From Lagopus muta (Eukaryota > Chordata > Aves > Galliformes > Phasianidae), in assembly GCF_023343835.1 (NCBI RefSeq), contig NC_064440.1, forward strand, positions 36,153,537-36,217,536: a stretch of 64,000 nucleotides of DNA, in the 5' to 3' direction. The notes beneath the pieces were generated by a model. That model had not been told where the DNA came from. It ran no database searches and saw nothing but the letters and a program-made list of their open reading frames with translations. Made by a program: the position numbers and the translations under genes. Shown piece after piece: positions 350-58,050 of the stretch; the first letter of the stretch is position 1; every line of letters starts with the position of its first letter.

Positions 350-3339
350 CTTCTACCAGGCATTGCAGCGCTGGCAGAAGATCTTATTAAAGGTTTTCGA
401 AGAGGGGAATGCTGGTAGTTTTGCTCTTCACTGCTTTGCCTTCCTTCCTCTTCACTTGCTTTCTTCTCCTTGGATGAAAATTCTCTTTTTGCTGGGCCTA
501 AAGTGACATATAAACATCAAGACAGGTACTCAGCAAATAATTTTCGCAACAGCTTTTTGCCTCAACTCCCCAGCGGTGCAGTGAGTAATTGGCTTTATTT
601 TCTGATAATATTATTCCAGTTACAACCTCATGGATGCACACAACACTAATAGGACAGCCTGCACTGGAAGTTGCACCAATGACGCCCACTAATTTCTGGT
701 TAGCTTTAGAGTTCCACAAAGGAAAAGCATTCTTGAATAAAACATTGCTAAGCAGTAAATGCAATTATTCAGCACATTGCCAGTAAATGAAGTCTGGGCA
801 TCAAATTTTAGTTCTTTTGAATTTGGGTTATAACTCAAAACCCACAGCTCAATACCCGGTGGCCTGGTTCAGCCTTGCTCAGTGACAAACTGATGCAAAA
901 CCACAAAAAACAGAACACCTGGTATTTAATCTGTTTTACCAACAAAAACTACGACTGTCACAACGTTTTCAGTGCTCCTGAGGTACTTGAACAATTCACA
1001 CATCCCAAGCTCAGGCTGGGGTTGACATGCCTCTTCAAGAGTTAAGTCGAAAAGAAAAAGAACAAATTCTCAGCCAGCTGGATTTCTCACACTCTCCCAG
1101 ATTAGTTACTATAGAATACTGCCATCCAGGTTTCTGTAGACCTTAATGCCAAAATAACATGACAAAAGCGTCCTTACAGCTGTTGCTTTGAGATATTTCT
1201 TCTCAGGAAAACAACTCTACAGCTGCTCTCTTGCTGTAAAACTAAGTTCCTGGGTTGGTCAAAGCTGTGGCAAGCCATTCACTCATTCTGAAACATATCT
1301 CCAAGCCAGGAACTTAGAGCTACAAACTCTGATTCATAAAATTAAAGGGAAGCACTTGGCAATTCAAATACTCACCTGGGGAGATGAATAGCCAACACCA
1401 GCATCTCCTTTTGCCTGAATCTCAAGCAGAGGGCTGGGGATAGCCCCCTTACTGGCTCCTAGGCTTCCTGGGAGCTATTCTTATTTTGTGAAGGCAGAGA
1501 AATAATTCTGTATGCAACTACATGCTTTAAAATATCCTCCCTCTCTCCCCAGTACCTGTGCCATTACCCACTGTACCACGCATCACCTGCTCATCACATC
1601 AAGAAACACAAGACTTACTTGTTTTCTTCTTCTGCCAAAATGTCACTATGTCTTTGTGCAATTCTTTTGCCTTTTTTTTGGCGAGGGCTGCAGAGGCCTG
1701 AAAGAAAACAAAGCGGAACTCAAGAGCTGTTAGCACAAGGAAGGACAGCTTCTGCTGGAGAAACATGTACCAACACTCAGACCTCCAGGTGCTGCCTTTT
1801 AGCCTAGAATCATTTGAGTTGTAAAGGACCTTTAAAGGCCATCTAGTTCATCTCCCTTACAATGAAAAGGGACACCCACAGCTCGATCAGGTGCTCAGAG
1901 CCCAGTCAAACCTGACCTTGAATGTCTCCAGGGATGGGGCATGGACCACCTCCTTGGTCAACCTGTACCAGTGCTTCACAACCTCCTGTCTGAGACATCC
2001 ATGCAACTGGCGGGGCTGGGTGTGTTCCACAACACATTACTTTTCTAAGGGACTGCAGAACACACGGGACTACAGGCCTCACCAAAGCAGCAACATTCCC
2101 AACAAGCGGATCACCCTGCAAAGATAGTGTTGCCCTTGATGCTACCGCATTTGGCGTTCAACTGCGCACTAATCACAGAATCACAAAGGCTGTAAAAGGC
2201 TCCTAAGATCATCCAGTCCAACCGTCAGCCCACCCCACCGTGCCACACCGACCACGTCCCTCGGCGCCTCAATCACCCTCTTCTCGAACACCTCCGAGGG
2301 CAGTGACTCCACCACCTCCCCAGGCTGCCTGTTCCAACGCCCCACCACTCTTCCGGACGGCAGTTACTTCCTAACATCCAGCCCGGCCCCGCGCCAGGCT
2401 GCAGCACTCAGGTTAACCCCCGCTCCCTCGCCGCCAGCCCCCAAAACATACGTGGTCAAAGAAGTGGACGACGGCCGTCTTCTTATTCCTGCGCGTCATG
2501 ACCCGGCGGACTTTCACGAACTGCCCGAAGTGCTTCTCCAGCACCGTCCTGTCGTTGAGGTAGTCGGGGACGTTTTTGCACTGGATGGCCGTTAGCTCGC
2601 CCGGCGCCGCGCCGCTCAGGCCGTCGGTGCCATCGTCGCCCCTCGCTCTGCGCGCCGGAGCGACGGGAGCGCCGTCCGCCGGCCCGAGCCTCGCCGGGTG
2701 CGGCATCTCCCGACCCTCGGCCGCCGGCTCCTCGGCCGCGCCCCGCTCGGGCTCCCCGCGCTCGCGGCCCTGGCTGCGCAGCACCTCCTGCAGCGTGCGG
2801 CCGAACAGGGCCCCGCCGCGGGGCCGGCTCAGCAGCACGGCGCGTTTCTCCGGCGGCGCTGCCACCCGCCCGCCCGACGCCGCCGTCCGCCGCGGCGAGC
2901 GCTCCCGCTCCTCCTTCCGCTTCAGCCCCTTCGGCACCGCCTCGCCCGCCTCCTCCGCGGCGTTCAACGGCGGCCGCGCGGCGCCCTCCTCGGGGCGGCC
3001 GAGCGGCGGGGCGGGCCGCGAGAAAGAGAAGCCGGCGGCGGGCGCCGGTGGCTCGTGTCCTGTCGCCTCGGGCGCGAAGCCGAAGGGCGGCGAGAAGGTG
3101 AAGGCGGCTGGGCCGTCGGGCGCCTTGAAGCGGAACTCCGGCGGCGCGAAGGCCCCGCCCGCCGCGTCGCTCGGCGCCGGGAGGCCGCCCAGGTCGGTGG
3201 GCGGCTTGAAGCTGAAGCCCGCGTTGCCCGCCGCCCGGCCCGGCCCGTAGGGCTGCGCGGGGACGAAGGGCGGCGCGACGGCCTGGCCGAAGCGCGGCGG
3301 GAAGGCGGGAGGGCCGCGGAACGGACCGCTGGCGTTCAT
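350..3339 (-). CDS. MCM3AP: MCM3AP (GANP), first three coding exons, partial
   Basis: MCM3AP/GANP is the nuclear scaffold of the TREX-2 mRNA export complex. Three exons join in frame on the minus strand: 3339-2452 (888 bp, ATG at 3339), 1697-1619 (79 bp) and 497-350 (148 bp), each with AG/GT borders. Exon one holds nucleoporin-like FG repeats (GFSFKPP near residue 40, FTFSPPFGF near 80, GFSFSRP near 105). It ends in an RRM-like fold of about residues 247-296, finishing AVVHFFDH. Exon two continues ASAALAKKKAKELHKD and exon three gives a Lys/Glu-rich stretch ending PLRKPLIRSSASAAMPG. Both follow the human protein as I remember it. The Sac3 and acetyltransferase parts lie beyond the window to the left. 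The open frame runs 5' of 3339 into the promoter, but the MNASGPF start matches the family's short N-terminus. Introns 498-1618 and 1698-2451 hold nothing else except CR1 in the second; a 30-base A run lies at about 103-132. Confidence 0.93.
1806..2005 (-). repeat. CR1 LINE 3' fragment
   Basis: Antisense CR1 tail in MCM3AP intron 2. On the minus strand it reads the usual end, with a motif like GGAGACATTCAAGGTCAGG, then the collapsed GATGAACTAGATGGCCTT block. It is 5'-truncated, as is normal for CR1. Confidence 0.8.
2174..2400 (-). repeat. CR1 LINE 3' fragment
   Basis: A second antisense CR1 tail, beginning with the typical AATCACAGAATCACAAAGG terminus and running through the GTTGGAACAGGCAGCC and GAGGTGGTGGAGTC blocks. 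It sits right against the MCM3AP CpG island and has an unusually high CpG content for a CR1. Confidence 0.85.
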
Positions 3340-3420
3340 GGCCTCCGCTTTCCGCGGCGGGCCGGCCCCGCGCACGCGCCGGCGGGCCGAGGCGGGCCGA
3401 GCGGGCGGAGCTCCGGCGCC
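3340..3420. promoter_or_regulatory. Bidirectional CpG-island promoter, MCM3AP / YBEY
   Basis: Only 81 bp separate the MCM3AP start codon (minus, 3339) from the YBEY start codon (plus, 3421). The interval is almost pure G+C and rich in CpG, and the island runs on into both first exons (about 2420-3790). It has no TATA box. A near-palindromic GCGCACGCGC at about 3369-3378 resembles an NRF1 site, and a GGGCGG GC box lies near 3403. Head-to-head pairing of these two genes is also known in mammals. Transcription starts inside or around this interval are inferred, not seen. Confidence 0.75.
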
Positions 3421-6400
3421 ATGAGCGTGCTGATCCGCAACGCGCAGCGCGCCGCGCCTCTGCGCCGGGTGCCGCTCCGTCGCGCCGTCTGCGCGCTGCG
3501 GGCCGCGCTGGGCGCCGCGCGCTTCGACGTGGCGCTGATCTGCGCCGGCGACGGGCTGATGAGGCGGCTGAACAGCGTGTACCGCCGGCGCCCCGAGCCC
3601 ACCGACGTGCTGTCCTTCCCCTACCATCGGGTGGCGCCGGGCGAGCTCCCGCGGCCGCGCAGCCGCGACGAGTACAACCTCGGGGACATCTTCCTGGGGG
3701 TGGAGCTCATCCAGCGGCGGTGCCGCCGGGACGGGGAGGACTTCGAGAGCGTGCTGACGGTGAGCGCCGCGGCGCGGAGGATCTGGGCCGGCGGCCTGGG
3801 AGCCTTAGCGTTCGTTTTTCTTCTTGGATTTTAGCTGCGGGAGGTGGGACTCTGATTGGAGCGGTGTCCACTTGAGCGAGCGGTGGGCCCAGGAAAACCT
3901 CGTGTTCTCGTGGGTATTCTCATGGGACCGTGAATCTCATGGTATCGTGTGTATTAGAGAATATGAATGTTGGACACAGCAAGCCTGCATATGCATGCAG
4001 ACCAGGGGAGGACAGGCTAGAAAGCAGCCCTGTGGAAAGGGATCTGGGGTTTTTGGATGACAGAGAGTTGAACGTGAGCCAGCAGTGTGCCTGGGCAGCC
4101 AGAAGGGCCAACTGTACACTGAGGTGCACCAGACCCAGCACTGCCAGCTGGGAGAAGGAAGGCAATGTCCCCCTGGTGCAGCCTCACCTGGAGCACTGGG
4201 GGCAGGTCGGGTGCCAGAGTATGAGAAGGACATAAAGCTATTGGAGAGCATCCAAAGGAGGGCTGCAAAGATGCTGAAGGATCTGGAGGGCAACGTGTGT
4301 GAGGGGTGGCTGAGATCCATGGTTTGTTCAGCCCAGAGCAGAGGAGGCTGAGGGGAGGAATCACAGTGGCCTAAAGCTTCCTGGTGAGGGGAGCAGAGGA
4401 GCAGGCACTGATTTGAACTGGTTGAGAGCAGTGGCCAACAGCTCAATGTCCGGATGGAGACCAGCGGACGAGTGGTGTCCATTAGGGGTCAGCGCTGGGA
4501 CTGACATGATTTCATGTGTTCATTATTCACAGTGGGATTGAGTGTGCCCTCAGCAAATATGCAGATGTTGCCAAGCTGTGTGCTGTGGTCAGCATACCCG
4601 AGGGACAGGATGTCATCCGGAGGGATGATGACAGGCTGAGCAGTGGGCCCAGGAGAACCTCATGAGGTTCAGCTAAGCCAAGTGCAAGGTTTTGCACCGG
4701 TGACGTGGCAGCCCCCACCATCAGTACAAGCTGAGGGATGTAAGGAACACAGCCTTGCTGAAAAGGACCTGGGGGTGCTGGTGGATGGCAGCTGGACATG
4801 AGCCAGCACTGTGCCCTCACAGCCCAAACCCAACCAGATCCTGGGCTGCATCAAAAGCAGTGCAGCCAGCAGGGCGAGGGAGGGGATCTGCCCTTCTGTG
4901 CTGTGAGACCTCACCTGGAGCTCTGCGTCCAGGTGGGGAGTCCTCAGTGCAGGAGAGATGTGCATCTGTTAGAGCATGTCTGGGGAAGGGCCACAGAAAT
5001 GCTCGTAGGGATGGAACACTTTGCCTAAGAGCACAGGCTGAGAGGGCTGGGGCTGTTCAGCATGGAGAAGAGAAAGCTGAGGGGAGACCTGAGAGCGGTC
5101 TTTTAATGTCTGATGGGGGGCTATGAGAAAGAAGGGGACAGAGTCTTCAGCAGAGTCTGTTGTAACGCGACAAGGGGAAGCAACTCGAAACTGAAAGAGG
5201 GGAGATTTAAATTGGATATAAGGAAAAGGCTTGTTCTGTTCTGTTTTGTTTTGCTTTACGATGAGGATATTGAAGCACTGCCACACGTTGCCCAGAGTTG
5301 GTGAGTTCCCCATCTCTGGAGGTGTTCAAGGTCAGGCTGAACAGGGCTCTGAGCAACCTGGTGTAGCTGTAGATGTCTGTGTTCATTGCAGTTGGGCTCC
5401 GTGGCCTTTAAAGGTCCCTTCCATCTCAAATGGTTCTATGATTAACTATAAGCCTGGGAGTTTTACTTGGTTTAATTTAAAGTAACACAGGTGAGCAGTT
5501 TCAGCTGCACACTGCTTCCGTACAGGAAGGACAGAAGACTGCCTACACCCACCACCTCCCTTGAGGTCTCAGTTCAGAATCTGCCCAGCCAGTGGCTGCA
5601 TGCCATGGCAGTGAGTGGAACCCAAGGCTTTGGAGAAATTAGGGGCTTTGGGACTGGTAAAAGGGCTGCTAAAATGGTGCAGGGTTAGTCGTGGCACTGC
5701 TCATGGCACAGGTCAGCAGAGCGAGCTACCTGATGCTAGTGGCAACTGTGTGTCACTCCTGTTGCTGATCTTGCCTGTACCAGCAAGCTGTGGCAGATGT
5801 TGGGAGTTAGATTTGTGACATCTACTCTCTGTTCTTTCTTCTCTGCACAGGTGACTGCAGCCCATGGATTGTGTCACTTGCTTGGCTACCAGCACAACAC
5901 AAAGGCGGAATGGGAACAGGTAAAGCAGTGCCCTTGCCATGGGAGGGTGCACAGTGCCCAAACTGTACCAAAGCTGAAAAGATTTCCCTTTATCACATCT
6001 CATGGAAGGGAGTGGCCCCAAGTCCTGTCCATCTCAGAATCACGGAACTGCAGGGGCTGGAAGGGACCTCTGGAGATCTTTTAGTCCAGTGTCCTGCTAA
6101 AGCAGCCTCCCTGCAGGAGGTTGCACAGAGAAGTGTTTGAATGGGTTGGAATATCTCCAAAGGAGATTCCACCACCTCTCTGAACAGCCTGTTCCAGGGC
6201 TCTGCCATCATCCTGGACAGCCCTGACAAGCTGGGGCACATGTTGGTAAGGACACGGTGCTTGTCACACAGGTATCGTGTCCCTGCTCTGCTCTCTGACC
6301 TGTGGTATTCGGCAGCTGTTTCAGCCCCTGTGCCCTTCTACAGATGTACCAGAAGGAAGAGGAAATCCTGGAGGAGCTGAACCGTCTCACAGGCAGCAGC

Positions 6401-26869: not shown

Positions 26870-29800
26870 ATGGGGACAGAGGGACTCCTGCCTCCTTGGG
26901 TGCTGTGGCTGCTCCTCTTTGTGCAGCCATGCAGTGGTAAGTTCTCATTCGCTTGTCCCAAAGTCCAGGGCAAGCAGGCACCAATGGGGTCACTGGGATC
27001 TCTCTGGGAAGTGTCTTCTCAGGGTCAGATAACAGGAGAATGGTCTCCAACCTCAGGGCCTGTGAGTGTGGCTGAGCAGGGTGGAACCCAAACCCATGGT
27101 GTGGGGCTCAACACTCTCCTGATGAATCTTCTGTTACTGTTTGAAGGAGTTGTGGAGGTGAGGCTGGTAAATGGCGGCGTGCACTGTGCTGGGAGAGTGG
27201 AGGTGAAATACAACAATGAGTGGGGGACCGTGTGTGACGATTCATGGGACATAAACGATGCTGCAGTGGTTTGCAAGCAGTTGGACTGCGGGTCTGCCAT
27301 AGAAGCTCCTCACTACGGACACTTTGGGCCAGGATCTGGCCCCATTTGGATGGATGACGTTGCCTGCAATGGCTCTGAGTCTGCACTGTCTGATTGCACA
27401 CATTCAGGATGGAAAGAACATAACTGTTTTCACAGTGAGGACGCCGGAGTTACATGCTCAGGTAAGGGACGAGCCTATCCTCGTGGCTTCTGTGGCCAGT
27501 TCAGGTGAGTCAATGAGCAGATGCCAGAGAACACCTGGCATACCACTTGTGGTGATGAGCTGGTGCTGCCAATTGCTGGTCCCTGGGAAGGCCCACTGGG
27601 AGTCCTCATTGTGAGCATCCTGCCTGGCCCCAAGGTGGCTCAACCGACCATTGGTTGGTGCCTGGGGCAAGGAGATGAATCCCCTGCATCCACGTCACAG
27701 TGCCTGTTGGTTCCCATATGTCTCCTTCTGATCACCCAGGACAATGAGAGCTATTAAAGTGGCCACATATGTCCCTGAGAAACGTATGAGGTGGCTGGGA
27801 ATTTTTGGATTGTGCTCCAGCAAGCACAAATCTCTTGGCCAAGGCAAAGGAGCTGCTTGGAGGTAAGCTCTCTGACCACTCTCCTACCATTCCTGGCCAT
27901 TGGATGGGGACACATGCAACCAGCAGTGCATTCTGGCCCTGGATGAGGACCCCTCCCCAGGCAGGCAGTGGAGCAGGGGCTGGTGCAGACGCTGACCATG
28001 GTTTGGAAACTTGTGGCATCCCATCCAATAGCAGTGCCACAACAGCCCAAGGCATCTGGGAACGGGGAACTTTTCTGGCATCTCCAAGGGGTTCCTTTGC
28101 CTTGCCAGAGCCTGGCAGAGCAGAGCAGACTGAAATATCTGCAGCTTCTGAGCCCATTACCCACATGCTGTTGTCACTGCAGTGCTGGGGGCTGGGATCA
28201 GGCAGAACAGGGGCTCCAGGATGGGAGTTTTCCTGAGCAGTGCCTGTGGTTGTGGGCTTTGGAGAGAAAGAAGTCCACAGTGCTGGGATGGTTTCTAAGG
28301 AGCAGTAGGGACTCCCTGATGTGTTTGTGCCCTCAGCACCCATCAAGAGGTGCTGGGATGGCTGCGGGGCTCTGCATGTAGCTGATTTGGAGATGAGGTG
28401 GGACATAAGAATGGGAGTGCCGGTGAGATCCCAAGTGTCTTTGCTTGCTCCAGGACCTATTCGGCTTGTTGGAGGAGACAATGACTGCTCAGGTCATGTG
28501 GAGATCCATGATGGAAAACAGTGGAAACCTGTCTGTGACTCACACTTTGGTCCCAAAGCTGCTGATGTTGTCTGCAGGGATTTGCTGTGTGGCAAAGCCC
28601 TGCTGTTACCCAGAGCAACTCCTTTGGATGAAGAAGTCAGTCCCATCTGTGACAGAGATCTGCAGTATGTGATGAATGCATCTGTCCTCACCTCCTGCCT
28701 CAAGGAATCCTCCATCAACCAGTCCTGCTCCCACCCAAATGGCACTCATATCACCTGCACAAGTGAGGACTCAGGGTGGGGTTGAACATGGGGTTGTGCT
28801 GGGAACATGGGAGCAAGGATGGGGCGGTGCTGGGTGTGAATGAATGTGGTGGTCTTGTCACACTGAAGTAGTGCAGAAGGAAAAGGGCACAATGTCCCTT
28901 TGGCTTCTCCAGATCCTGAGAAAGCTAGAGCACAAACCCTCCTCTTCTTTCCAAGAATACACAGGGTTCAGGCTGGCGAACAGCAGCACGGCGTGTGCAG
29001 GCAGGGTGGAGGTGCAGGTGATGGGGACCTGGGGCACCCTCTGTGCCTCCCGCTGGGACCTCTCGGACGCCCATGTTCTCTGTCATCACCTTGGCTGTGG
29101 GTTCGCAGAGGTCGTTCCTAAAGGAGGGCATTTTGGGGGAGGAACCGGCCCTGTCTGGAGTGACTCGTTCCACTGTGATGGGAGTGAAGCCCATCTGGCT
29201 CAGTGCCCAGTGACCGTCCTGGGGGCCGCGCCGTGCTCTCATGAAAACGATGCCGCTGTCATTTGCTCAGGTGCGTGCTGGAAAAAAGCTGTGGTAACTC
29301 CTTTTGTGCAATACGGCCATCCAAAGCCGGAAACCTCACAGCAGCACTAGGCTGAAGCTCTCCCTGCAGAAACCCTGCGGGGTGCCAGGCTCCCTGATGC
29401 ATTTCTGGAAAACCTCTGCTCTCCGCAGGCCTCGTTCGCCCCATGTCCCTGCGGCTGGTGGGCGGAGGGAGCCGGTGTGATGGGCGCGTGGAGATCTTCC
29501 AGCACAGCACATGGGGCAGAGTCCTGGATGACCAGTGGGACCTGGAGGAAGCCAGAGTGGTGTGCCGGCAGCTGCGCTGCGGGGAGGCGGAGGCAGCCTA
29601 CATCCCTCTGAGAGCCCAGCGAGGGACGGACGCCGTGGGGCTGCGCGGTGTGCGGTGTGCAGGGCACGAGGCCGGCCTGAGCCTCTGCAACACCTCCCTG
29701 CCAGAGGCCACGGGCGTCATGGAGGACGTGGGGGCCGTGTGCCGGGGTGAGCAGCGCTGCGCATCTCTCAGGCACATCAGCAGACAGGCAGGCGGCCTCT

Positions 29801-32800
29801 GATGGTTGGGGCTTCTCCTCACTGCAGGGAGCCGACGGGTCCGACTGGCAGATGGGGCCGGGCGCTGTGCAGGAAGAGTGGAGATCTACTACCAGGGCCA
29901 ATGGGGCACGGTCTGCGATGATGCTTGGGACACGGCTGACGCTGATGTTGTCTGCCGCCAGCTGAGCTGCGGGTGGGCTGTGGAGGCGGCTGGCTCCGCT
30001 CGGTTTGGGGAGGGCTCCGGGCAGATCTGGATAGATGACGTAAACTGCTCCGGGACTGAAGCTGCTCTCTGGGACTGTCGTGTCCAGGGATGGGGACAGC
30101 ATGACTGCGGGCACAAGGAGGACGCGGGAGTCATCTGCTCAGGTCGGTGCTGGGAGCGGTGCTTCTGGCCATGGGGCAAAGGGATGGGCAGAGGGGTGAG
30201 CCGAGCATGGATGATGCCACCAGGGGGCCTCTGCCCGAGCCTGTCTGCATGCAGATTTATTGTTTGCTCTGGGGGGTATCTGGGGAGAGTGGCCACTCTG
30301 ACAGTGAGTGGGGAGGGTGGGGATGCACATCTGCAACCTCTCCATCCTCAGGTGCGAAGGGGACTTGCTGGCCATGCTTCCGGGAGTGGAGGAAGCCCGA
30401 GAGTGCAGAGGAACCTCTGCTTCCCAGAGCTGGACCAGCCTGTTTGTCCTGGGTTTTTCTTCCTCACAGAGTTCATGGCCTTGAGGCTGGAGAACAACGA
30501 TGGCTGCTCCGGGCGCCTGCAGGTTTTCTATAACGGGACGTGGGGCAGTGTTTGTTCCAACTCGATGACTCCTCACACAGTGCCATTGGTGTGTAAGCAG
30601 CTGGGCTGTGGGGACAGTGGGACCCTGGAAATGAACTCGCGCTACGATAAGCTTTCTGGCACTGCATGGCTGGATCGTATCGAGTGTGGGAAGAGCAATA
30701 GCACCTTCTGGCAGTGTCCTTCTGCGCCCTGGGACCCACAGTCATGTGATGATCTGCGAGACGAGACCAACATCACCTGCAGTGGTAACTATGAGCCACA
30801 AGGGCACCAGTGGCACCTCAGCTCCTGCTACCTGCTTGGCACAGTCTGGCACAGAGAAAGAGCCTGGAGAGGCTTTTTCTGCCCACATTAAACTCTGCTG
30901 CTGCTGGTGGCAAATTGGCCGCTTCAGCTGTCAGAGCTACACGTGCTCACCAGCAGTGCCCAGGGGAAGCAGAGGCAACTCCAGGGGAGGTCTCAGAAGA
31001 GACCAGACAGGATATGAGGAGCCTCCCCTCCTGCTGCTCTGTGATCCAGGCACTCTGTGAGGATGAGTATTCTGGGTCCCTTTGCAGTGCCAAGTGTGTC
31101 CTTTCAGTGACTGGGGTTTGGCTGCTGCCATGACCACAGTGAGGTGCAAGACAAGGCCAGCTCTGCTCTCTTCTGCACGACTCCCAGCCCCTTCACTACA
31201 ACACTTCTTTCTGCAGGGAGACAGCCAGGAAGGCCTCTGGTGGCAGCATGCCCCAACTCCACCAGTTGCACAGGTAAGAACAACTTCTTCACATGGCTTC
31301 TAGCCTGGCAAGACTGTCCCGACTGTGCTGGTGCCACGTGGGAAGTTTCTGCATCTGCAGACAGGGAGAAGATCCGTGCTGTGGGAGGCAAGGACAGATG
31401 CTCAGGCAGAGTGGAGGTCTGGCACCACGGCTCCTGGGGCACAGTGTGCGATGACTCGTGGGACATGCAGGACGCTGAGGTGGTGTGCCGGCAGCTGGGC
31501 TGTGGCCCTGCAGTGTCTGCCCTGGCTGAGGCTCCATTTGGGGAGGGTACAGGACTCATCTGGCTGGAGCAAGTGGAGTGCAAAGGGACGGAGCTGTCGC
31601 TGCAGGACTGCTGGGCCCGGCCTGGAGACAGCGGTGTCTGCCGGCATAAGGAAGATGTTGGAGTGCATTGCTTAGGTGAGTGATGGAGCTGGGCCTTCTT
31701 CCTCAGGTCCTGCCCACAGTCCTGAGTGGAGCAGAGCAGGGCCCTGGACACTGTCCCAGACACCCTGCCCAGCCCTGCAGGAGGGCAATTCGGGTGGCAC
31801 ATGTTGAAGATGTGTGCCAGGGGATTCCCTATTACTGTACACACGCCGCCTCAGCCCTGTTCTTCTCCTCTGCAGCTTCACCCAGGATGACAGCGTTCCC
31901 CCCACAAGCAGGTAAGATGTCCACCCTTGGGGCTGGGTCTTCATTGGGCCAAACTGTGACCCACAGCCAAGGGGAGGAATCTCTTTATCAGGGTGTGAAA
32001 TGCCCAGGAAGAGGCACAAGGATGTTAGGGATGGGGAGGGGCTGTAATGTACCAGGAGGATGGGAGTTGCTGCATCACCCAGCCCCTGGTCCCCAACCCC
32101 CACTGCCTTGCATGACTGGGATAAGGGCTGGGATGTCCTGCCCCTTTTCTCTCCGAACCCTGGTGAATCCACTGCTGTGTTCCTTCCCCTGCAGACTATC
32201 CAATTGGCGGAGGGAGAGTCTCCATGCCTGTTATCATTTGCATTATCCTCGGGGCTCTTCTCTGCCTGCTCCTGGCTCTCCTGGCTGGGCAGGTGCAAAG
32301 TGCCAAGGCTCAGTGCAGAGGTAGGTCCTGTCCCAGTAATTCTGGGGGAGATGCCTCCTGATAGGGCTGGCGGTGATGCTGGAAGAAGCATGGGTAAAGT
32401 GGGGGGATAGGACCATCTGCTGCTTCCTGTTTCACACCACTCCACAGACAGCCTGGACATTGGGCCCCAGCAGCAAGGCGGGGAGAGTGCCCAGAAGCAG
32501 AGGGAGTTAATGTTGGGGCAAGGGAAGAAATGACAAAGCAACACTGGTAGGGATGGGTGTAGAGAGGAGACAGCCAAAGATTTTCCACTGTGGCAGCAGT
32601 GGAGGGGGCTTTGGGGCAGAGGAAGTGCCAGGAGGAGTGAGGGGTGCAGTCCATTACTCTGTTGGCAGAGTGCACTCTGCCACTCTGTGTTGTGTTGGGC
32701 ACAGCCACGCTATGGACCTGAGGGACAGAGAGAGGGCAGCTCTAAGGATCAGCAGTGGGATCTAACACAGGGGCCAAAGAAGCATGAAGGTTGTCTTTGA

Positions 32801-37170: not shown

Positions 37171-46202
<9,032 letters not shown>

Positions 46203-46590
46203 CGCCACCGGTGCTGTCAAGAACGGGACCGGGATGGGGCCGAGACCGCGCTATCCTGAGCCGAGATGGCCTCACGGGAGGCCGCCAATGGGCCCGTGGC
46301 ACCGCCGCGAGCCCGCCCATAACCCGCCCCGAGCCCGCCCCTATCCCCGCCCCGGACCGCACCGCGGGTGGAGCGGAGTGCCGTCTCCAACGCGCAGGGG
46401 CGGGGCGCAGCCTCTCCAGGGCGAAGGTGGTGCAGGCGCGCGGTTCGGTGCGGCTGCGGAGAGGGATCCGAACGGTGTCCATCCACGGACCCGCCCTACT
46501 GCAGCTCCGCGGAGCCCCGCATGGGGGCGGTGACCGCAGAGTCGCGTCCTCGAGTCTCTCCCTGCCCCCGGCGCCGTAACCCGGACTTAA
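46203..46590 (-). promoter_or_regulatory. LSS promoter region
   Basis: A CpG island without TATA lies upstream of the LSS start. It has a CCAAT box at about 46285-46289 (GCCAATGG on plus), a nearby CTCACGGGAG at about 46271-46280 that weakly resembles a sterol regulatory element, and several CCCGCCC GC boxes at 46310-46350. Pairing of SREBP and NF-Y sites is typical of sterol pathway genes; calling the SRE here is inference. The promoter abuts the inverted repeat at 46591. Confidence 0.5.
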
Positions 46591-46992
46591 CAGCCGCTGC
46601 AGAGAAAGCCGCCGTTGGGGGGAACCAAACCCCGGGCGTTCAGCAGCGCGGTGCCGGTGCGTGGCCGTGCCGCAGTTCCGCCCGCACGGAGGCATTGAGC
46701 AGCAAGCAGCGGCGCTGCACGGCGATCCCACCCGTGGGCCGGGGGCTCCGCAGAGCCCGGGGGCCGCGCGGCCGCTCCGTTCCGTGCGCGTAACCGAGGG
46801 GACGGCGCCCGTCGCGGGCCGTGCCCTCGCGGAGCGGCTGCCCGTGTGCCGGGGCAGCCCCCGTAACGCCGACGCTCCGTCCGTCTCCTCGCGCCCGGAC
46901 GAGCAGCGGCAGTGCCCTGCGGTGCGCACGGCCGGCACGGCGCGGAGACCCTTCGCCACACACAAAGACCACAGAGCCACCGAGAGGACTTT

Positions 46993-46998
46993 TTTATT
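46993..46998 (-). terminator. Poly(A) signal of the left His-rich gene
   Basis: AATAAA on the minus strand in a GCAATAAAAAAGTCC context, followed by a GT-rich stretch (GGTCTTTGTGTGTGGCG) within 40 bases. This is a well-formed cleavage site, identical to that of the right arm. Confidence 0.7.
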
Positions 46999-47148
46999 GC
47001 CGACCTCAACCCGAGCCCGAGCTGCTGTTTCCGGCAGAGGTGCTGCCACACGTAGCGGGTGGGAGACCCCGGCGACAGCGCGGCTACCAGGTAGCCGAGG
47101 GACGAAGACGGACCCGTGCCATGGACGGCTGCCGACGGGGCTCAGCGC

Positions 47149-47529
47149 CTAGTGGGGGTGGCCGTGCGGGCCCGGCGGAGACGGATTGGGGCCCTTCGGA
47201 GACGTATGGGAGCCCTTCGGGTGGGGGCCGCCTCGGTCATGGCCGGGTGGGTTATGCCCTGGCGACTTTCCGGGCCCTCCGTGCGGCTGCGGCCCTCCGT
47301 GCGGCCCTGCAGGAAGAGGTGCGCGTCAGGGCTGCGGAACGGCCACGCGGCTCTGCTGGAGCTGTAGTGCCCCGGCTGCCGGGGGAGGCTCCTGGCCCCC
47401 GGCATGACCGGGCTTGCGGCTTGCGGGCGGCGGCAGGGGACGTGGGCAGGGAGCGGCCTGGCAGCGCAGGCACCCCCAGGGCTGCCCAAGCCCTACCCAC
47501 GGGCACTTACCTGGGTGTGGGGATGACAT
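47149..47529 (-). CDS. Putative His/Pro/Gly-rich microprotein, left-arm copy (58 aa)
   Basis: I do not recognise this gene. The coding parts are 47529-47511 (19 nt, in a 33-bp exon 47543-47511) and 47306-47149 (158 nt, TAG). The acceptor CTTGCAG, donor GTAAGT and acceptor CTTCCTGCAG are all good. The protein starts MSSPHPGPHGGPQPHGGPG, contains KGSHTSPKGPNPS and ends PPGPHGHPH. It has 10 His, many Pro and Gly, no Cys, and no signal peptide or membrane segment. A separate noncoding first exon (47744 to about 48000) contains no ATG, so this ATG is the first in the mRNA. The copy in the other arm differs by 7 codons in exon 3, keeping frame. A second frame (RTEGRSRTEGPES, ending RTATPTRR) is also open, so the coding frame is not certain. 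The His clusters suggest metal binding, which is inference only. Confidence 0.45.
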
Positions 47530-47743
47530 CGCACGGCCCCGAGCTGCAAGGGAAGCAGGGACCGCGCTGTTAGTGCTGCCCGCCGTGCACGGCCCTCGTG
47601 CCTGGCATCCCCGTGGTCCCAGGCCTCCAGCCCAGCCGTGGCCCCGTGTGCCCGGGTACGAGGAGTGCCACCCACACGTGTCCCACACGCGTCCCCACGG
47701 ACATCCCGACCCATCTGGGCACCCCGGGAGCAGCCACCCTCAC

Positions 47744-48000
47744 CTCTGTGCTCCCGGCACAGCTCAGGCTCGTGCTTTCCCTCGCTGATGCCGAGAACCC
47801 AACCCTTGCCTAACGCACCCCCTCCGGGCGGCGAGGAACAGCCGAGCCCCGCGCCCAGCCCGCGTCCTCGGCGCCGCGCGGCTCCAGGACTCCGTGCTCC
47901 GCCACAGCCCACCCTGCTGCCCCGCTGGCCTCTGCCGCTCAACACCTACAGAATCGACAGCACCGCGACCCCAGCGTCGTCCTCACGCAGCACACAGGCT
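47744..48000 (-). other. Noncoding first exon of the left His-rich gene
   Basis: It ends in the donor CACAGAG|GTGAGGG at 47744. The start is guessed at about 30 bases after the TTTTAAG box. It has no ATG. The sequence is almost the same as the right-arm exon. Confidence 0.4.
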
Positions 48001-48021
48001 GTCGGGGCCGACCTCGGGGCA

Positions 48022-48031
48022 CCGCTTAAAA
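48022..48031 (-). promoter_or_regulatory. Weak TATA-like box (TTTTAAGCGG), left arm
   Basis: On the minus strand GGTTTTAAGCGGTGCC stands where the right arm has ACATATAAGCGGTGCC. Upstream sequence is again shared between the arms (GCGTCCCCATGGTGATGG; CCCATAAAACCATCG). This core promoter has diverged within otherwise matching DNA. Confidence 0.45.
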
Positions 48032-48395
48032 CCACCACCATGGGCGGCGCCGGCCCATAAACACGGCGATGGTTTTATGGGTGCCATCACCATGGGGACG
48101 CCCAACAGACAGTCGGCGCACCCAGCGCAGGGCACAAAGGTCTGCAGCCCTCGCCGGGCGCGGTGGGGATGGGTGGTTTTCGTCATCTGATGCAGGGGGT
48201 GCGTGGCTGCTTGGTGCCTTCTACTTTGGATTTGGCAATAAAGTTTCCTCCTGTTGACTTTCAGGGTGATCCAGGTTCCTTTGTGCTGCGCGGTGACACT
48301 TGAACAAATCAGATGGGGCAAAGTTCAGGCCAAAAAGCCCAGCCCACACTCCTGGCCGTAAATTCTCGTGGTTGACATCCAGCACTGATATTAAC

Positions 48396-50634
48396 AATTG
48401 GATGCAGGGACACAGGCTGTGCAGCGTGTGGCAAAGCAGTGCCTACAGCCATGGGTAGTGAGGGAGTGGTCTGGGCCATGGCATTGCAAAATATGCTCCT
48501 AGCATTGATGTGTATTTCAAAATCTCCCAAAACATTTAAAAGAGAAATGCTTATATGGGAGACATTGCTTTATTTTTGTGCAGGGCTCAAGGTGGGTGAG
48601 ATCGAGTTCACCCAAGTCTTTAATTTGTACTTGCAATCTGAATGTTTTCACTGCATGTTTACCCAGTACATAAGTCCCACCTCCCTGCTATGCATTCCTA
48701 CCATTTATGTAGGTAGAAGCTAATATGGTTACACATACATACATGGATCTCCTGTGCTTGCACCGGGCAGTATTCAGTGGGCATGTGGGCAATCTGTGCC
48801 TGGAGCACCGCCAGCTCCGTACGACCCGTTCTCACTAGGGAGAGCTGTGATGCTGCTTCTGTGCAGCTTAAGTGGATGGTGTTGGTTGACACACACATAG
48901 GAGTGCTGCATTTGGGGTGCTATAGCCTTGATTTATTTTGGTTTGGGGAAACAAATGAGGAAACCATAATGATCTGCCTGAGAGGAGCTTTTCACAGGGA
49001 TCTCTGCTACCACATGGCTGTCAGAGTCTTCACAGCACTGCCAGAAGACAGTGATGAAGGGTGATCCGTTTGAGTTTATTGTCTTTGTATTATATATATC
49101 TATATAATTATGTATCTATATATATAGTATTACATACGTCTGTATAATCAATCTGCTTGCACATTGTCTTCATTATGCAGCTTGGGCATTGCTTTATACA
49201 AGTTTTCTGAGGATTAGCCCAAAATTAATGGAGCAATGCTCTGCTCCCTAATGGAGTAATGCTCACTCCCTGTTTGTGAGTGCCCTGCCTGCCAGAGACA
49301 TCACAAGCTGCAGCTATTCCTTCCCTTTGGGCACCCTGCAACCCTACAGGGCAATCTGTGCCAGGGCAGGAGGGACACTGCCCATTGTTGTGCTGTGCCA
49401 ATTTAGGATAGTGCTTAGTGGTTTAGCTGAGTTCAGCCAGGAGATGACCTAATCCAAGGCTGTGTTTCAGGTGAGATAACAGCATCAAAGTTTTCAGCTC
49501 TAGAGGAATGGCTCAGTGTTTTCTTAGAAGGTCGTGTAAATTGCAATGGAGTGATACTTGGTGGACAAGGAGTGGATCCAGAGTGTTTCCTCTGCCACCG
49601 GGTGCACAGTTGTGCTGGGAGAACATACAGCATAAGCAGGGGCTGGGGGACCCCCTGACCCCACCAACCTATGTGCAGGGTGCTGAACTGAGCCCACTCC
49701 ATCTTCTTCCTGCACTGACTTCTATGGGCACCAGCCTCACTCCCAGTGTTTGCTGGTACTTCCTGATTCTGGAGGTGGTTTCAGGCTGCCTGCCACGATC
49801 CCATCTCATCTCTCCTGGGCTCAAAGACACACAGTGGCACACAGAGGTATGGAGCCTGCAGAACCGTGTTCTCAGTGAGCAGCCCTGCAGAGGCAGAAGC
49901 ATTTTCTTCCCCCTCCTACACACATTCCTCTGCCCTCATGAGTTTTTTTCTCCCAGTTCAATGACCACCAGCCTTTGTCTCGTGGTCTGGCAGAGCCTGG
50001 TGCCAAGCACACCAGAGACACACACTGCCTTTTCTCCCTGGGCCCGCTATGAAGACCTCACATTGTGTTTAACTAGGGAGAGAGAAAAGCAGAGGCTTGG
50101 AGCATTGTGCTCAGCTTTGGGCTATGTAAAACCCTCTGTTTCTCCAAAAATATCAGTCCAAAGCCCTGGTGAGAAATCAGTGACCCGAGGAAAAGTGTCC
50201 TGAGGTCACAGTCTCCCTTAAAAGATCAGGGCCATGAATTTCAAAATGAAAGAATTGGCAGCACTTTGCACGTCACTGACATGGGTGAGCACCAGCTCCC
50301 AGCCTAGCACAGCCTGACACCTCTGCACAGGCCTCAAGAACTATTCAAGGACTATTCAAAGGTGGGGCTGGAGAGGACTCCTGTGGGGGGAGTGAGGGGT
50401 GGAGGCTGTTGCATGCTGGCCAAGGACCATGTACAAGGACGTGCACAAGGAGCAAGGCAGCCACCGGAAGCTGCCTGCAGAGGTGGGACAGGGCCAAGGA
50501 TGAAGGTGCCCATGACTAACCCTGCTAACTAACAGGCATGTTTCCAGCTTGTGATGCAAGGCAGTGTCATGCTGGGACCATCTTTTACAACCCAATGGCC
50601 CTGGCCCTTCTCACTACCCATGCCTCCATCCAAC
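48396..50634. other. Unique spacer of the inverted repeat
   Basis: About 2.2 kb of single-copy, moderately AT-rich DNA between the arms. It holds a TATATC/TATA microsatellite at about 49090-49135 and no ORF with family motifs, splice-supported exon or known repeat that I can name. As both His-rich genes point away from it, it would hold their shared upstream regulatory DNA. Confidence 0.6.
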
Positions 50635-51159
50635 ACATCAGTGCTGGATGTCAACCACGAGAATTTATGGCCAGGAGTGTGGGCTGGGCTTTTTGGCCTA
50701 AACTTTGCCCCATCTGATTTGTTCAAGTGTCACCGCGCAGCACAAAGGAACCTGGATCGCCCTGAAAGTCAACAGGAGGAAACTGTTGCCAGATCCAAAG
50801 GAGAGGGCACCAAGCAGCCATGCACCCCATGCATCAGATGACAAAAGCCAGTAGAGCATCCCCGGCCACACAGCTGCATCCACCAACGGTTTGCACAGTG
50901 GGTGTGAAGGAACCTGTCCGTGGCCCCTTTTCCTGCCGGATGCGCTGCGTCTGACCCACCCTCACCCTGACCCCAGGGATCAGGCGGTGCCGGCGGAGGA
51001 GCCACCACCCATCCCCACCGCGCCCGGCGATGGCTGCAGACCTTTGTGCCCTGCGCTGGGTGCGCCGACTGTCTGTTGGGCGTCCCCATGGTGATGGCAC
51101 CCATAAAACCATCGCCGTGTTTATGGGCCGGCGCCGCCCGTGGCACGGCAGGGCCCTAC

Positions 51160-51167
51160 ATATAAGC
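51160..51167 (+). promoter_or_regulatory. TATA box (CATATAAG), right arm
   Basis: CCCTACATATAAGCGGTGCC is a good TATA element about 30 bases ahead of the presumed start of exon 1. The left arm has TTTTAAG at the same place. Confidence 0.6.
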
Positions 51168-51189
51168 GGTGCCCGAGGTCGGCCTCGAC

Positions 51190-51445
51190 AGCCTGTGTGC
51201 TGCGCGAGGACGACGCTGGGTTTGCTGTGCTGTCGGTTCTGTAGGTGTTGAGCGGCAGAGGCCAGCGGGGCAGCAGGGTGGGCTGTGGCGGGGCACGGAG
51301 TCCTGGAGCCGCGCGGCGCCGAGGACGCGGGCTGGGCGCGGGGCTCGGCTGTTCCTCGCCGCCCGGAGGGGGTGCGTTAAGCAGGGTTGGGTTCTCGGCA
51401 TCAGCGAGGGAAAGCACGAGCCTGAGCTGTGCCGGGAGCACAGAG
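51190..51445 (+). other. Noncoding first exon of the right His-rich gene
   Basis: From the presumed start 25-30 bases after the TATA box to the donor CACAGAG|GTGAGG at 51445. It contains no ATG. The start position is an estimate. Confidence 0.4.
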
Positions 51446-51659
51446 GTGAGGGTGGCTGCTCCCGGGGTGCCCAGATGGGTCGGGATGTCCGTGGGGACGC
51501 GTGTGGGACACGTGTGGGTGGCACTCCTCGTACCCGGGCACACGGGGCCACGGCTGGGCTGGAGGCCTGGGACCACGGGGATGCCAGGCACGACGACCGT
51601 GCACGGCGGGCAGCACTGACAGCACGGTCCCTGCTTCCCTTGCAGGTCTGTGCTGTGAG

Positions 51660-52061
51660 ATGTCAGCCCCACACCCAGGTAAGTGCCCGTGGGTAGGGCT
51701 TGGGCAGCCCTGGGGGTGCCTGCGCTGCCAGGCCGCTCCCTGCCCACGTCCCCTGCCGCCGCCCGCAAGCCGCAAGCCCGGTCATGCCGGGGGCCAGGAG
51801 CCTCCCCCGGCAGCCGGGGCACTACAGCTCCAGCAGAGCCGCGTGGCCGTTCCGCAGCCCTGACGCGCACCTCTTCCTGCAGGGCCGCACGGAGGGCCGC
51901 CGCCGCCGCACGGAGGGCCCGGGCACGGAGGTCCACCGCACGGTCCTCCAGGGCATCATCACCCACACGGCCCCCACCTGCCGCGCCCCCATCTGCACCT
52001 GCCGGGCCCCCATCCGCCTCCGCCGGGCCCGCACGGCCACCCGCACGGCCACCCCCACTAG
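51660..52061 (+). CDS. Putative His/Pro/Gly-rich microprotein, right-arm copy (65 aa)
   Basis: I do not recognise this gene. Coding parts are 51660-51678 (19 nt, in a 33-bp exon 51646-51678) and 51883-52061 (179 nt, TAG), with CTTGCAG, GTAAGT and CTTCCTGCAG splice sites. The protein starts MSAPHPGPHGGPPPPHGGPG, has HGPPGHHHPHGPH in the middle and ends PPGPHGHPHGHPH. It has 18 His in 65 residues and no Cys, signal peptide or helix. The first two exons place this ATG as the first in the spliced RNA, with G at -3. Exon 3 is 21 nt (7 codons) longer than in the left arm, and the end PPGPHGHPH is shared. An Arg-rich alternative frame is also open. It points towards S100B, 2.1 kb away on the same strand. 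Zinc, copper or nickel binding is possible but only inferred; a noncoding RNA is the main alternative. Confidence 0.5.
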
Positions 52062-52210
52062 GCGCTGAGCCCCGTCGGCAGCCGTCCATGGCACGGGTCC
52101 GTCTTCGTCCCTCGGCTACCCGGTAGCCACGCTGCCGCCGGGGTCTCCCACCCGCCACGTGTGGCAGCACCTCTGCCGAAACAGCAGCTCGGGCTCGGGT
52201 TGAGGTCGGC

Positions 52211-52216
52211 AATAAA
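52211..52216 (+). terminator. Poly(A) signal of the right His-rich gene
   Basis: AATAAA in GGCAATAAAAAAGTCC, 150 bases after the TAG, with a GT-rich downstream element (TCTTTGTGTGTGG). It matches the left arm exactly. Confidence 0.7.
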
Positions 52217-52699
52217 AAAGTCCTCTCGGTGGCTCTGTGGTCTTTGTGTGTGGCGAAGGGTCTCCGCGCCGTGCCGGCCGTGCGCACCGCAGGGCACTGC
52301 CGCTGCTCGTCCGGGCGCGAGGAGACGGACGGAGCGTCGGCGTTACGGGGGCTGCCCCGGCACACGGGCAGCCGCTCCGCGAGGGCACGGCCCGCGACGG
52401 GCGCCGTCCCCTCGGTTACGCGCACGGAACGGAGCGGCCGCGCGGCCCCCGGGCTCTGCGGAGCCCCCGGCCCACGGGTGGGATCGCCGTGCAGCGCCGC
52501 TGCTTGCTGCTCAATGCCTCCGTGCGGGCGGAACTGCGGCACGGCCACGCACCGGCACCGCGCTGCTGAACGCCCGGGGTTTGGTTCCCCCCAACGGCGG
52601 CTTTCTCTGCAGCGGCTCCCACGGCCGCCGTGGGTCGGCAGCGGGTCAGTGCAGGTCTGTGTGCCTCTGCGCACCGCTCAGCCCGTTGCCGGACGCCCC

Positions 52700-52817
52700 G
52701 GCCTCCCTTTGCCATTGGCGCCGGGCGCTGCGGCACGGGTGAGGCTCCACGCCCACAGGCATAAGAAGGCCGTCTGCCGCCGGGCTGCAGCCGCAGCGCT
52801 GGGCATCGCCAAGGGAG
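52700..52817 (+). promoter_or_regulatory. Probable S100B promoter and noncoding exon 1
   Basis: Directly after the inverted repeat, a GC-rich block contains an inverted CCAAT box (CCATTGGC, near 52713-52719), an ATAAGAAGG TATA-like element at 52761 and a splice donor GGGAG|GTGAG at 52817. S100 genes usually have an untranslated first exon, which would pair with the acceptor at 54101. This assignment rests on position and motifs only. The intron 52818-54101 shows no other feature. Confidence 0.4.
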
Positions 52818-54117
52818 GTGAGAGGGGAGAGGGCTCGGGGATGGGGGACGGGGAACCGGCGACGGGCGGGCGGGGCTGCTCCGTAGCTGAGCTCTTTACT
52901 CACTGCAGAGGCCGGTGGAGAGCTGAGATGACGTGGCAGATATTTACCCGCGCGGAATGAATTAAACGAGGACCGGCCACCAAACTGTTGGGTTTTTTAA
53001 CCCCAGCGTCAGTGCATTCAGCAGCTTCTGGGGAGATGCACTTGTATCCCTCCCTGTCAGGTTGTATTTGGTCTGGCTTTTTGTGAGATCTCCAGGAAAA
53101 GCTGCGGTTACTGGTAGTCCTGAACTGGTCTCCAGGTCGTATGCGTGAGGAAGAAAGGCAGAGGAGTTGCCCTTGTTTTCTCCTATTGGCACCTATCAAA
53201 ATCGAATCCTGCTCACTTCCCCCTGACTATTCATTTGGAAATGGGCCTGCAGGCAAGAAAGACAGAGGCAAGGGCACCTGAAATGGAAGGGAAAGCAAAG
53301 CCTTTCTGAAGTGCCTCCCTCCACCCCACCCTCACCTGTTCCTATCCCAATAGGTAGAGCAGTGGATTGAGCAGTAGGAAAAAAAGAGAATAGGTGAGGT
53401 GACAACATTCATGATTAAGTGCGAGTTTCATCAGCTGAGAACGTAGCACAAGGATAGTCCAGTTCCTGCTGCGTTTTGATTAGTGGGGCTTGAGGGTTTG
53501 GGTCATCCAAAAGTGGATTTCTTTCCCATAGGGAGTGCCAGGCAGCAGGGCTGAGGTGCAGCCCAACTACAGTGAGACTTGGGAGAGGAGTAGCAGTTCC
53601 ACGGCCTGGAGCTGCATGGCAGCTCTGAGCCAGAGCTCAAGCCCCATCCCAGGCACAGACTGGTGCTCTGTGCTTCCCACAGCCCATTTCTGCTATGCAG
53701 GTTTCCCAAAAGCACTGGCAACACAAGCTTAGCAGATGACCCTGCCCCACTCGTCAGCTAGCTCAGCACTTATAGGAAATGCAGGAAGCCTCCAGGGTTT
53801 TGCCACCTGTCTCCTTCCAGTTTTCTGTCCTACACTCTACACACAACGCCTGTCGGTTCCAGGGAATGCACCTGTCCCACTGCCACCACTCCTTGTGCTG
53901 CAGCTCATCTGGAGCACTCACAGAGCCAAGGCCTCTTAGAACCACAGATCCTGGGATCTTTCCCAAAGTGAGAGCTGCTAGCAGAGCTTGTCTGCACCGC
54001 TGTTGGGTGGGAGGGTGCCCCAGGGTACTGGTGCTCACCAAGCAGAAGGCATCACTGCAGCCTAACCCTGTTGATGTGCCCATTGCCTCCCTGTGACCTC
54101 AGGACTGTGCTGTGACC

Positions 54118-54616
54118 ATGTCTGAGCTGGAGAAGGCCATGATCGCCATCATCGATGCTTTCCACCAGTACTCTGGGAAGGAAGGAGACAAGCATAAGCT
54201 GAAGAAATCGGAGCTGAAGGAGCTCATTAACAATGAATTAACCCATTTCCTTGGTGTGAGTATTGCTTCCTACATAGCACACCTGGGCTCAGGCTCCAGC
54301 TCCCCAGGAGCAGGTGGTGGCTGGACAAAGCCTGTGTCAGGGCTGGAGGCTTGGGTTGTACACTAGGGAAATTTCCTTCCCTGGGAGGGTGATAGCCTTA
54401 CTCTGTGGGCCTCAAGGTGCCCTGGTAGGGCTGCTGTTAAGCAGATGCTGCTTACACCTGTTTCTTTTCTTTCAGGAGATCAAAGACCAAGAGACTGTGG
54501 ACAAAGTCATGGAGGCACTGGACAGTGATGGGGATGCAGAGTGCGACTTCCAGGAGTTTGTGGCCTTCATTGCCATGGTTACCTCTGCTTGCCATGAGTT
54601 CTTTGAGCATGAGTGA
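54118..54616 (+). CDS. S100B: S100B, complete coding region (92 aa)
   Basis: S100B is a small dimeric EF-hand protein that binds Ca and Zn. The coding exons are 54118-54255 (46 codons) and 54476-54616 (46 codons plus TGA), joined in phase 0; the first coding exon begins at acceptor 54101/54102. The sequence starts [20 protein letters not shown]. The S100-type loop covers about residues 18-31 ([14 protein letters not shown]) and the canonical EF loop is Asp62 to Glu73 ([12 protein letters not shown]). The C-terminal CHEFFEHE keeps the His/Glu zinc ligands. The length equals human S100B. Position 46 is Gly where human has Glu. Confidence 0.97.
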
Positions 54617-54745
54617 GCTGGTGAGAAGCAGTTGAGCAGCTCCCACTCACGCTGGAGAGATGCAAAGCAGCACCACTCCTCTTGGGAAAAGACTGGATGC
54701 ACTTGGGAGCTCCGTGAAGTTAAGCTTGTGCTACTTAAGCAGCTT

Positions 54746-57329: not shown

Positions 57330-58050
57330 CTTTTCACTCTGGAATATTCAAATTGGGACAGATGACACGCATCCCAGTGTTCTGAAGGAACTGCCTGATG
57401 TGGTTGGCAAGTTGCTCTTCATCATATTAAAAAAATCATGGCTGTTAGGTGAAGTTCCCAGTGACTGGAAAAAGAGAAACATCACTTCCATTCTCAGGAA
57501 AGGAAGACCCAGGGAACTACAGGTTGATGAGCCTCACCTTTGTGCCTTATCTGGGAAGATCATGGAAGATATTCCTGGAAGAGATGTTAAGACACATGCA
57601 AGACGCAGAGGTGATCAGAGACAGCCATTGTGTCTTCAACAAGGGCAGATCATGCCTGAACCATCTGGTGGCCTTCTATGATGGAGTGATGGCTTCGGTG
57701 GACAAAGGCAAGGCAACCTATGCTGTCTACCTGGACTTGTGCAAGGCCTTTTGTGTGGTCCCTCACCACAGCCTTATCTCTACATTGGAGGATTTGAAGG
57801 CTGGACTATTCAGTGGATAAAGAATTGGATGTTTGTAGCCAGAGAATTGTTGTCAACAGCTCTGTCTGCATAGAGGCTGGTCACAGTTGGTGTCCCCCAG
57901 GATTGGTCTTGGGACCACTGCTCTTTAACAGCAGCAAAGAAGTGGGATTGAGTGTACCTTCACAAAGTTTGCTGATGACACCAAGCTGAGCGTTGCAGCT
58001 GATCTCCAGCAGAAGGAACACCATCTACACCATCTAGACAGACCGGTACA
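57330..58050 (+). repeat. CR1 LINE, ORF2 RT fingers to palm
   Basis: In the plus strand, across frames, the CR1 reverse transcriptase text is plain: [26 protein letters not shown], a [12 protein letters not shown] segment, [36 protein letters not shown] and finally KFADDTKLS near 57960-57990. It has frame breaks and no CR1 3' end. The similarity stops soon after the palm. Confidence 0.85.

Follow-up and report, generated by a model that had tools for sequence, protein, structure and literature searches.

Does the large inverted repeat that lies between LSS and S100B in the bird Lagopus muta carry a pair of genes, and do such genes code for protein? We address this question in a window of 64,000 nucleotides (contig NC_064440.1, positions 36,153,537 to 36,217,536; all coordinates below are counted from its first letter). 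A first-pass annotation, made from the letters of the DNA, had placed an inverted repeat at 46591..52617 and proposed that it bears two outward-pointing genes for His/Pro/Gly-rich microproteins. The explanation that we favour as a whole, with a probability of about 0.6, is a young, compact, spliced, protein-coding gene pair whose arms would have been kept alike by gene conversion from arm to arm. It rests on the anatomy of the two genes, on a patchwork of identity between the arms and on changes that keep the reading frame.

The inverted repeat is borne out by a repeat search of 45500–53600, by alignment of the arms and by BLASTN, which delimit the following parts:

46592..48389, minus strand: left arm of the inverted repeat
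50637..52617, plus strand: right arm of the inverted repeat
48390..50636, no strand: unique loop separating the arms, 49% GC, CpG observed/expected ratio 0.14

Eight inverted pairs, 78–100% complementary, link the two arms. The right arm, compared with the window, gives BLASTN matches of 94% identity over 1,617 columns and 94% over 216 columns, and no third copy is found in the window at an expectation value (E) of 1e-3 or below. Aligned with each other, the arms show 81 mismatches in 1,793 columns; their largest difference in length is a stretch of 157 bp, starting at about 50847 and present in the right arm only. The outer arms (46592–48177 and 51004–52617) are 72–73% GC, with CpG observed/expected ratios of 0.86–0.87. 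The inner arm ends (48174–48389 and 50637–50850), which lie outside the genes proper, are likewise duplicated, at about 94% identity, and may derive from an old transposon or a regulatory piece.

The arms contain the following gene parts:

51101..51126, plus strand: inverted pair CCATAAA/TTTATGG, about 35–60 bp upstream of the TATA box; it falls within a run of 108 bp that the arms share without a difference
51161..51166, plus strand: TATA box of the right gene, TATAAG (the left arm reads TTTTAAG at this place)
51190..51445, plus strand: putative non-coding exon 1 of the right gene, its start placed from the TATA box
51646..51678, plus strand: exon 2 of the right gene, 33 bp, with the ATG at 51660
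51883..52061, plus strand: coding part of exon 3 of the right gene through the TAG; 65-residue product
52211..52216, plus strand: AATAAA of the right gene, with a GT-rich element after it
47744..48000, minus strand: putative non-coding exon 1 of the left gene, its start placed from the alignment, without a TATA box
47511..47543, minus strand: exon 2 of the left gene, 33 bp, with the ATG at 47529–47527
47149..47306, minus strand: coding part of exon 3 of the left gene through the TAG; 58-residue product
46993..46998, minus strand: AATAAA of the left gene, with a GT-rich element after it

For both arms, the first pass placed exons, splice sites, stops and poly(A) signals correctly, and it was also right on the length of exon 2 and on an exon 1 free of ATG (none occurs in the scanned stretches 51160–51445 and 48040–47744). 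The right-arm junctions 51445/51646 and 51678/51883 are exact AG/GT...AG/G sites, with left-arm partners at 47744/47543 and 47511/47306, and intron 2 of the right gene (51679–51882) splits the coding frame. The sequence CAGGTAAGT occurs twice in the 64 kb, both strands counted, and both occurrences are exon-2 donors. The claim that each arm holds the full set of parts is valid for the right arm only, because no TATA box is present on the left, where GGTTTTAAGCGG stands in place of the right arm's CATATAAGCGG. The CCATAAA/TTTATGG pair resembles what we take to be CDX or posterior HOX sites, and we treat it as a lead only.

How readily would such an arrangement arise by chance? An ordered set of TATA box, donor and AATAAA with a GT-rich element appeared in 0 of 5,000 simulated arms (first-order Markov model of 51004–52617); of the same sequences, 0.9% contained the TATA pattern and 2.8% a near-consensus donor, and none contained AATAAA plus a GT-rich element. 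Because the patterns were drawn up after the sequence had been seen, this result is supportive rather than a formal test, and the two arms count as one event, not two. We consider it rather probable that the locus holds a real, young, spliced gene pair.

The arms differ from each other very unevenly. From the inside outwards, the arm alignment has 10 mismatches in 210 columns in the inner flank (plus 159 gap columns), 3/141 in the proximal upstream part, 6/21 in the TATA block (plus 11 gap columns), 8/270 in exon 1, 4/200 in intron 1, 5/13 in the exon-2 leader (the true leader has 14 bases, one more than the boundary used takes in), 1/20 in the exon-2 coding part, 0/204 in intron 2, 40/158 in the exon-3 coding part (plus 21 gap columns), 4/179 in the 3′ untranslated region and 0/377 downstream. 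Exon 3 thus stands at 40/158 against 4/404 for both introns (Fisher p = 8e-20), and rotating the mismatch pattern along the arm gives exon 3 as many mismatches in 51 of 1,793 cases. Runs of 440, 229 and 211 bp are identical between the arms, the outer 440 bp among them, and the divergence block 51904–52017 has both its ends inside the exon-3 coding part. The two-arm gene model of the first pass is kept; it had overlooked the divergence peaks and the absence of a TATA box on the left.

A contrast of this kind is hard to obtain from a single duplication date and a uniform rate; the natural, if indirect, reading is that gene conversion has homogenised a large part of the arms. Introns and flanks of low divergence around a coding segment of high divergence, as found here, are what mark gene-converted duplicates with a divergence peak. 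In primate red and green opsins and in colobine RNASE1, the available part of one paper describes how selection restricts conversion where divergence is favoured and so leaves a divergence peak (PMC3924837). The likeness lies in introns or untranslated parts made alike by conversion beside divergent coding sequence. The same portion of that paper reports the pattern in orthologues and key amino acid changes of known effect (PMC3924837), whereas here there are two copies in one genome, they are inverted, and extra peaks stand at the promoter and the leader. Selection against homogenisation is a tentative proposal for the present arms, and against it stands the point that a mechanical cause could make conversion unequal between introns and exons.

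The predicted products agree with what the first pass had described: 58 and 65 residues, 17–28 percent His, rich in Pro and Gly and free of Cys. The right product has 38.5% Pro, 27.7% His and 23.1% Gly, and the left product 31.0% Pro, 24.1% Gly and 17.2% His. Both start with MS[A/S]PHPGPHGG and are 67% identical in a MAFFT alignment. The left product carries Lys (three), Ser, Asn and one Gln, whereas the right product has a single Arg and neither Lys nor Gln; Tyr, Phe and Trp are absent from both. Both chains look disordered, and no signal peptide is apparent in either by eye.

Is this frame kept as a coding frame would be? In the codon alignment, differences fall 13/9/4 on codon positions 1, 2 and 3, so that third positions are spared; a third-position share this low occurred in 0.75% of 400 neutral simulations. 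Synonymous divergence (dS) is 0.073 and non-synonymous divergence (dN) 0.224 between the products, a marginal difference (one-sided Fisher p = 0.043) that is confounded by repeat turnover and the choice of alignment. The exon-3 gaps in the arm alignment are 3, 6 and 12 bases long, all frame-keeping, and the frame was lost in 79% of 2,000 simulated copies given four random-length gaps and 36 substitutions. These changes favour, somewhat better than evenly, a His/Pro/Gly-rich frame that codes for protein.

Several points weigh against that reading. Once the coding parts are joined, frame 1, too, runs without a stop in each arm (frame 2 meets two stops in the left arm), and in DNA this GC-rich little can be concluded from an open frame. 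Frames 1 and 2 score 83 with 7 gap codons, against 86 with 15 for the proposed frame. The number of coding mismatches varies with the alignment (26 in the codon alignment, 34–36 in free alignments, 40 in the arm alignment), the codon-position split becomes 18/15/8 when the highest of five gap penalties is used, and one gap breaks into 2 and 1 in two of the five free alignments. Among simulated neutral copies given in-frame deletions, 61% stayed in frame without a stop. Because changes spread among repeat units, some exon-3 mismatches are not independent. Finally, when tblastn is run unmasked, both products match a 21-bp tandem repeat at 46088–46176, with best E values of 3.6e-9 and 1.4e-9; the unmasked search also matches the arms' own introns (for the right product, at E near 1e-6). 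The tandem repeat sits next to the first coding stretch of LSS, 0.4–0.5 kb beyond the left arm, and judged by eye it probably falls within intron 1 of LSS. It yields a His/Pro-rich peptide in a minus frame and shares its period with the exon-3 repeat, possibly by chance. His/Pro richness therefore says little by itself, being cheap in GC-rich repeat DNA, and the LSS-side repeat stands as a warning of this.

Alternatively, the pair could produce spliced non-coding RNAs, or transcripts of GC-rich CpG islands next to the promoters of LSS and S100B, with the His/Pro/Gly frame an accident of GC-rich repeat DNA: promoter, splice and poly(A) signals need no protein, and the second open frame and the peptide of the LSS-side repeat fit such an account. 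It leaves aside the exon-3 gaps in multiples of three, the spared third positions and a divergence block confined to the exon-3 coding part, and we think it unlikely. A nearer contender, a little short of an even chance, takes the exon-3 divergence mainly as turnover of tandem repeats that outpaces conversion, with no selection, in which case the genes may still be real. Exon 3 ends with three 21-bp units in each arm, and a 12-bp unit is detected in the right arm; units 1 and 2 are closer within an arm (L1–L2 3 differences, R1–R2 4) than between arms (L1–R1 10, L2–R2 5), and unit lengths in multiples of three can alone produce in-frame gaps. However, unit 3 shows 0 differences between the arms, and turnover of the 21-bp units fails to explain most mismatches, because 25 of the 40 in exon 3 precede the first unit (start placed at 51978; arm alignment). 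Nor does Tandem Repeats Finder (TRF) find an array at the peaks in the TATA block or the exon-2 leader, although the TATA block of the left arm does show a short run of GGT.

If the left copy were instead a decaying duplicate on its way to a pseudogene beside a working right gene, its TATA box, lost or never present, and its differing leader would be accounted for. Its frame is nevertheless intact, and donor, acceptors, stop and poly(A) signal are the same as in the right gene; this is a weak counter, because these parts lie mostly in stretches kept identical between the arms. We judge decay improbable, somewhat more so than a non-coding pair. The identical outer 440 bp would suit an assembly artefact (a fold-back or a haplotype join), which 81 substitutions and the 157-bp indel between the arms, together with arm ends that meet different neighbours, LSS and S100B, adjacent in chicken and turkey lists, make very improbable.

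In the coding gene pair that we prefer, an inverted duplication within the LSS–S100B intergenic space of a bird would have given rise to a young gene pair. Each gene would be transcribed outward and spliced twice, and translation from the ATG in the 33-bp exon 2 would yield a disordered, signal-less, Cys-free His/Pro/Gly microprotein. Conversion between the arms would keep introns, 3′ ends and flanks alike, and would be resisted or outrun at the core promoter, the leader and the exon-3 coding part. The copies would thus diverge in promoter (TATA box on the right, none on the left) and in product. Transcription, translation, gene conversion and selection are here all inferred from the DNA letters. 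A more specific version, in which palindrome-driven conversion in an orphan bird pair spares the functional parts, with a joint divergence, under selection, of core promoter, leader and protein, seems doubtful to us.

The products match no family that we searched, in line with the first pass. With E allowed up to 10, Pfam gives no family for either product, and no PDB sequence matches the right one; Rfam (gathering thresholds) and a tRNA scan returned nothing bearing on the gene pair. In protein searches, which are weak for short low-complexity proteins, the left product had no candidate sharing three 5-residue words, the right product had 209 candidates and none with E of 0.001 or below (the query, 51864–52061, started in the last bases of intron 2 and did not include exon 2), and an alignment of both products had 319 candidates and none with E of 10 or below. 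Since no homologue turned up, the pair may be lineage-specific. Histidine-rich glycoprotein, which has cystatin-like domains beside a His/Pro-rich region, shares the His-, Pro- and Gly-rich composition; unlike it, the products here have no recognised domain (Pfam, E up to 10) and no signal peptide by eye. In particular, the Pfam search finds none of that family's cystatin-like domains in either product.

What might such proteins do? Metal binding, which the first pass had raised as a possibility, would rest on His content and composition and is not supported; a His/Pro-rich peptide is also encoded by the tandem repeat on the LSS side. In the 809 bases 50637–51445, a single match to TGCRCNC, which we take to be the metal-response-element core, lies on the plus strand at 50821, some 340 bases upstream of the TATA box; the minus strand has none. 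Metallothionein-like regulation was set aside. Our guess, held with low confidence, at the likeliest single role is a cytosolic scaffold, or a filler that coacervates, switched by pH or metal, because the calculated charge jumps from +0.9 (right) and +2.6 (left) at pH 7.4 to +17.3 and +12.2 at pH 5. The disordered His-rich chains of squid-beak proteins are able to phase-separate, according to the accessible part of a study whose title stresses aromatic stacking (PMC6884462); for products without Tyr, Phe or Trp, the same behaviour would be a guess.

By description, the nearest counterpart is EDMTFH, a histidine-rich protein of chick feather, whose high His content arose in Phasianidae as inferred in the available excerpt of its paper (PMC5147990). 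The excerpt describes a small His-rich bird protein with a non-coding exon 1 and a TATA-like box, a likeness to the genes here. EDMTFH lies in the epidermal differentiation complex (EDC), has 99 residues, 40.4% of them aromatic counting His, and 1–2% Cys, and is coded wholly in exon 2 (PMC5147990). The present pair, by contrast, lies at another locus, is coded across exons 2 and 3, has His as its sole aromatic residue and lacks Cys, so that layout and composition differ. An EDC structural protein of the EDMTFH type was rejected on the neighbours, LSS and S100B, and on a frame split by intron 2. Of the residues used in EDC-type cross-linking (Gln/Lys in transglutamination, Cys in disulfides), the right product has none, and the left product three Lys, one Gln and no Cys.

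If real, the locus would give two textbook genes a neighbouring gene pair that has no name yet. GC-rich DNA hides bird genes from sequencing. Such DNA also goes with fast protein evolution, as stated in the part available of PMC8449477. The pair would further be an inverted-repeat counterpart of the opsin case, with conversion set against selection over 2 kb and peaks at promoter, leader and coding part together; one genome would then offer a natural map of which bases in two microgenes matter. The divergence peaks yield a sharp prediction.

The flanking genes are marked by two coding matches:

45871..46056, minus strand: LSS N-terminal coding stretch, matching residues 7–61 of 1w6k (E 1.5e-11); downstream neighbour of the left gene
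54118..54619, plus strand: S100B coding exons (about 54118–54255 and 54479–54619); downstream neighbour of the right gene

They confirm the neighbours and the outward orientation given in the first pass. About 0.5 kb separates the left arm end from the matched LSS stretch, and the S100B start codon lies 1.5 kb past the right arm end. LSS and S100B are adjacent on chromosome 7 in the portions seen of chicken and turkey gene lists (PMC11366514, PMC8470100), and no description of genes between them was found in the literature searched.

Elsewhere in the window, a strong CpG island at 2001–4000 (70% GC, CpG observed/expected ratio 1.11) has long open frames, the one tried, of 463 residues, having no Pfam match. 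Beyond LSS and away from the palindrome, Pfam identifies scavenger receptor cysteine-rich (SRCR) domains in two open stretches on the plus strand, at 29398–30888. A reverse-transcriptase-like fragment at 57449–57817, presumably CR1-like, scores 29.2 bits with Pfam RVT_1, just below the cut-off of 29.6.

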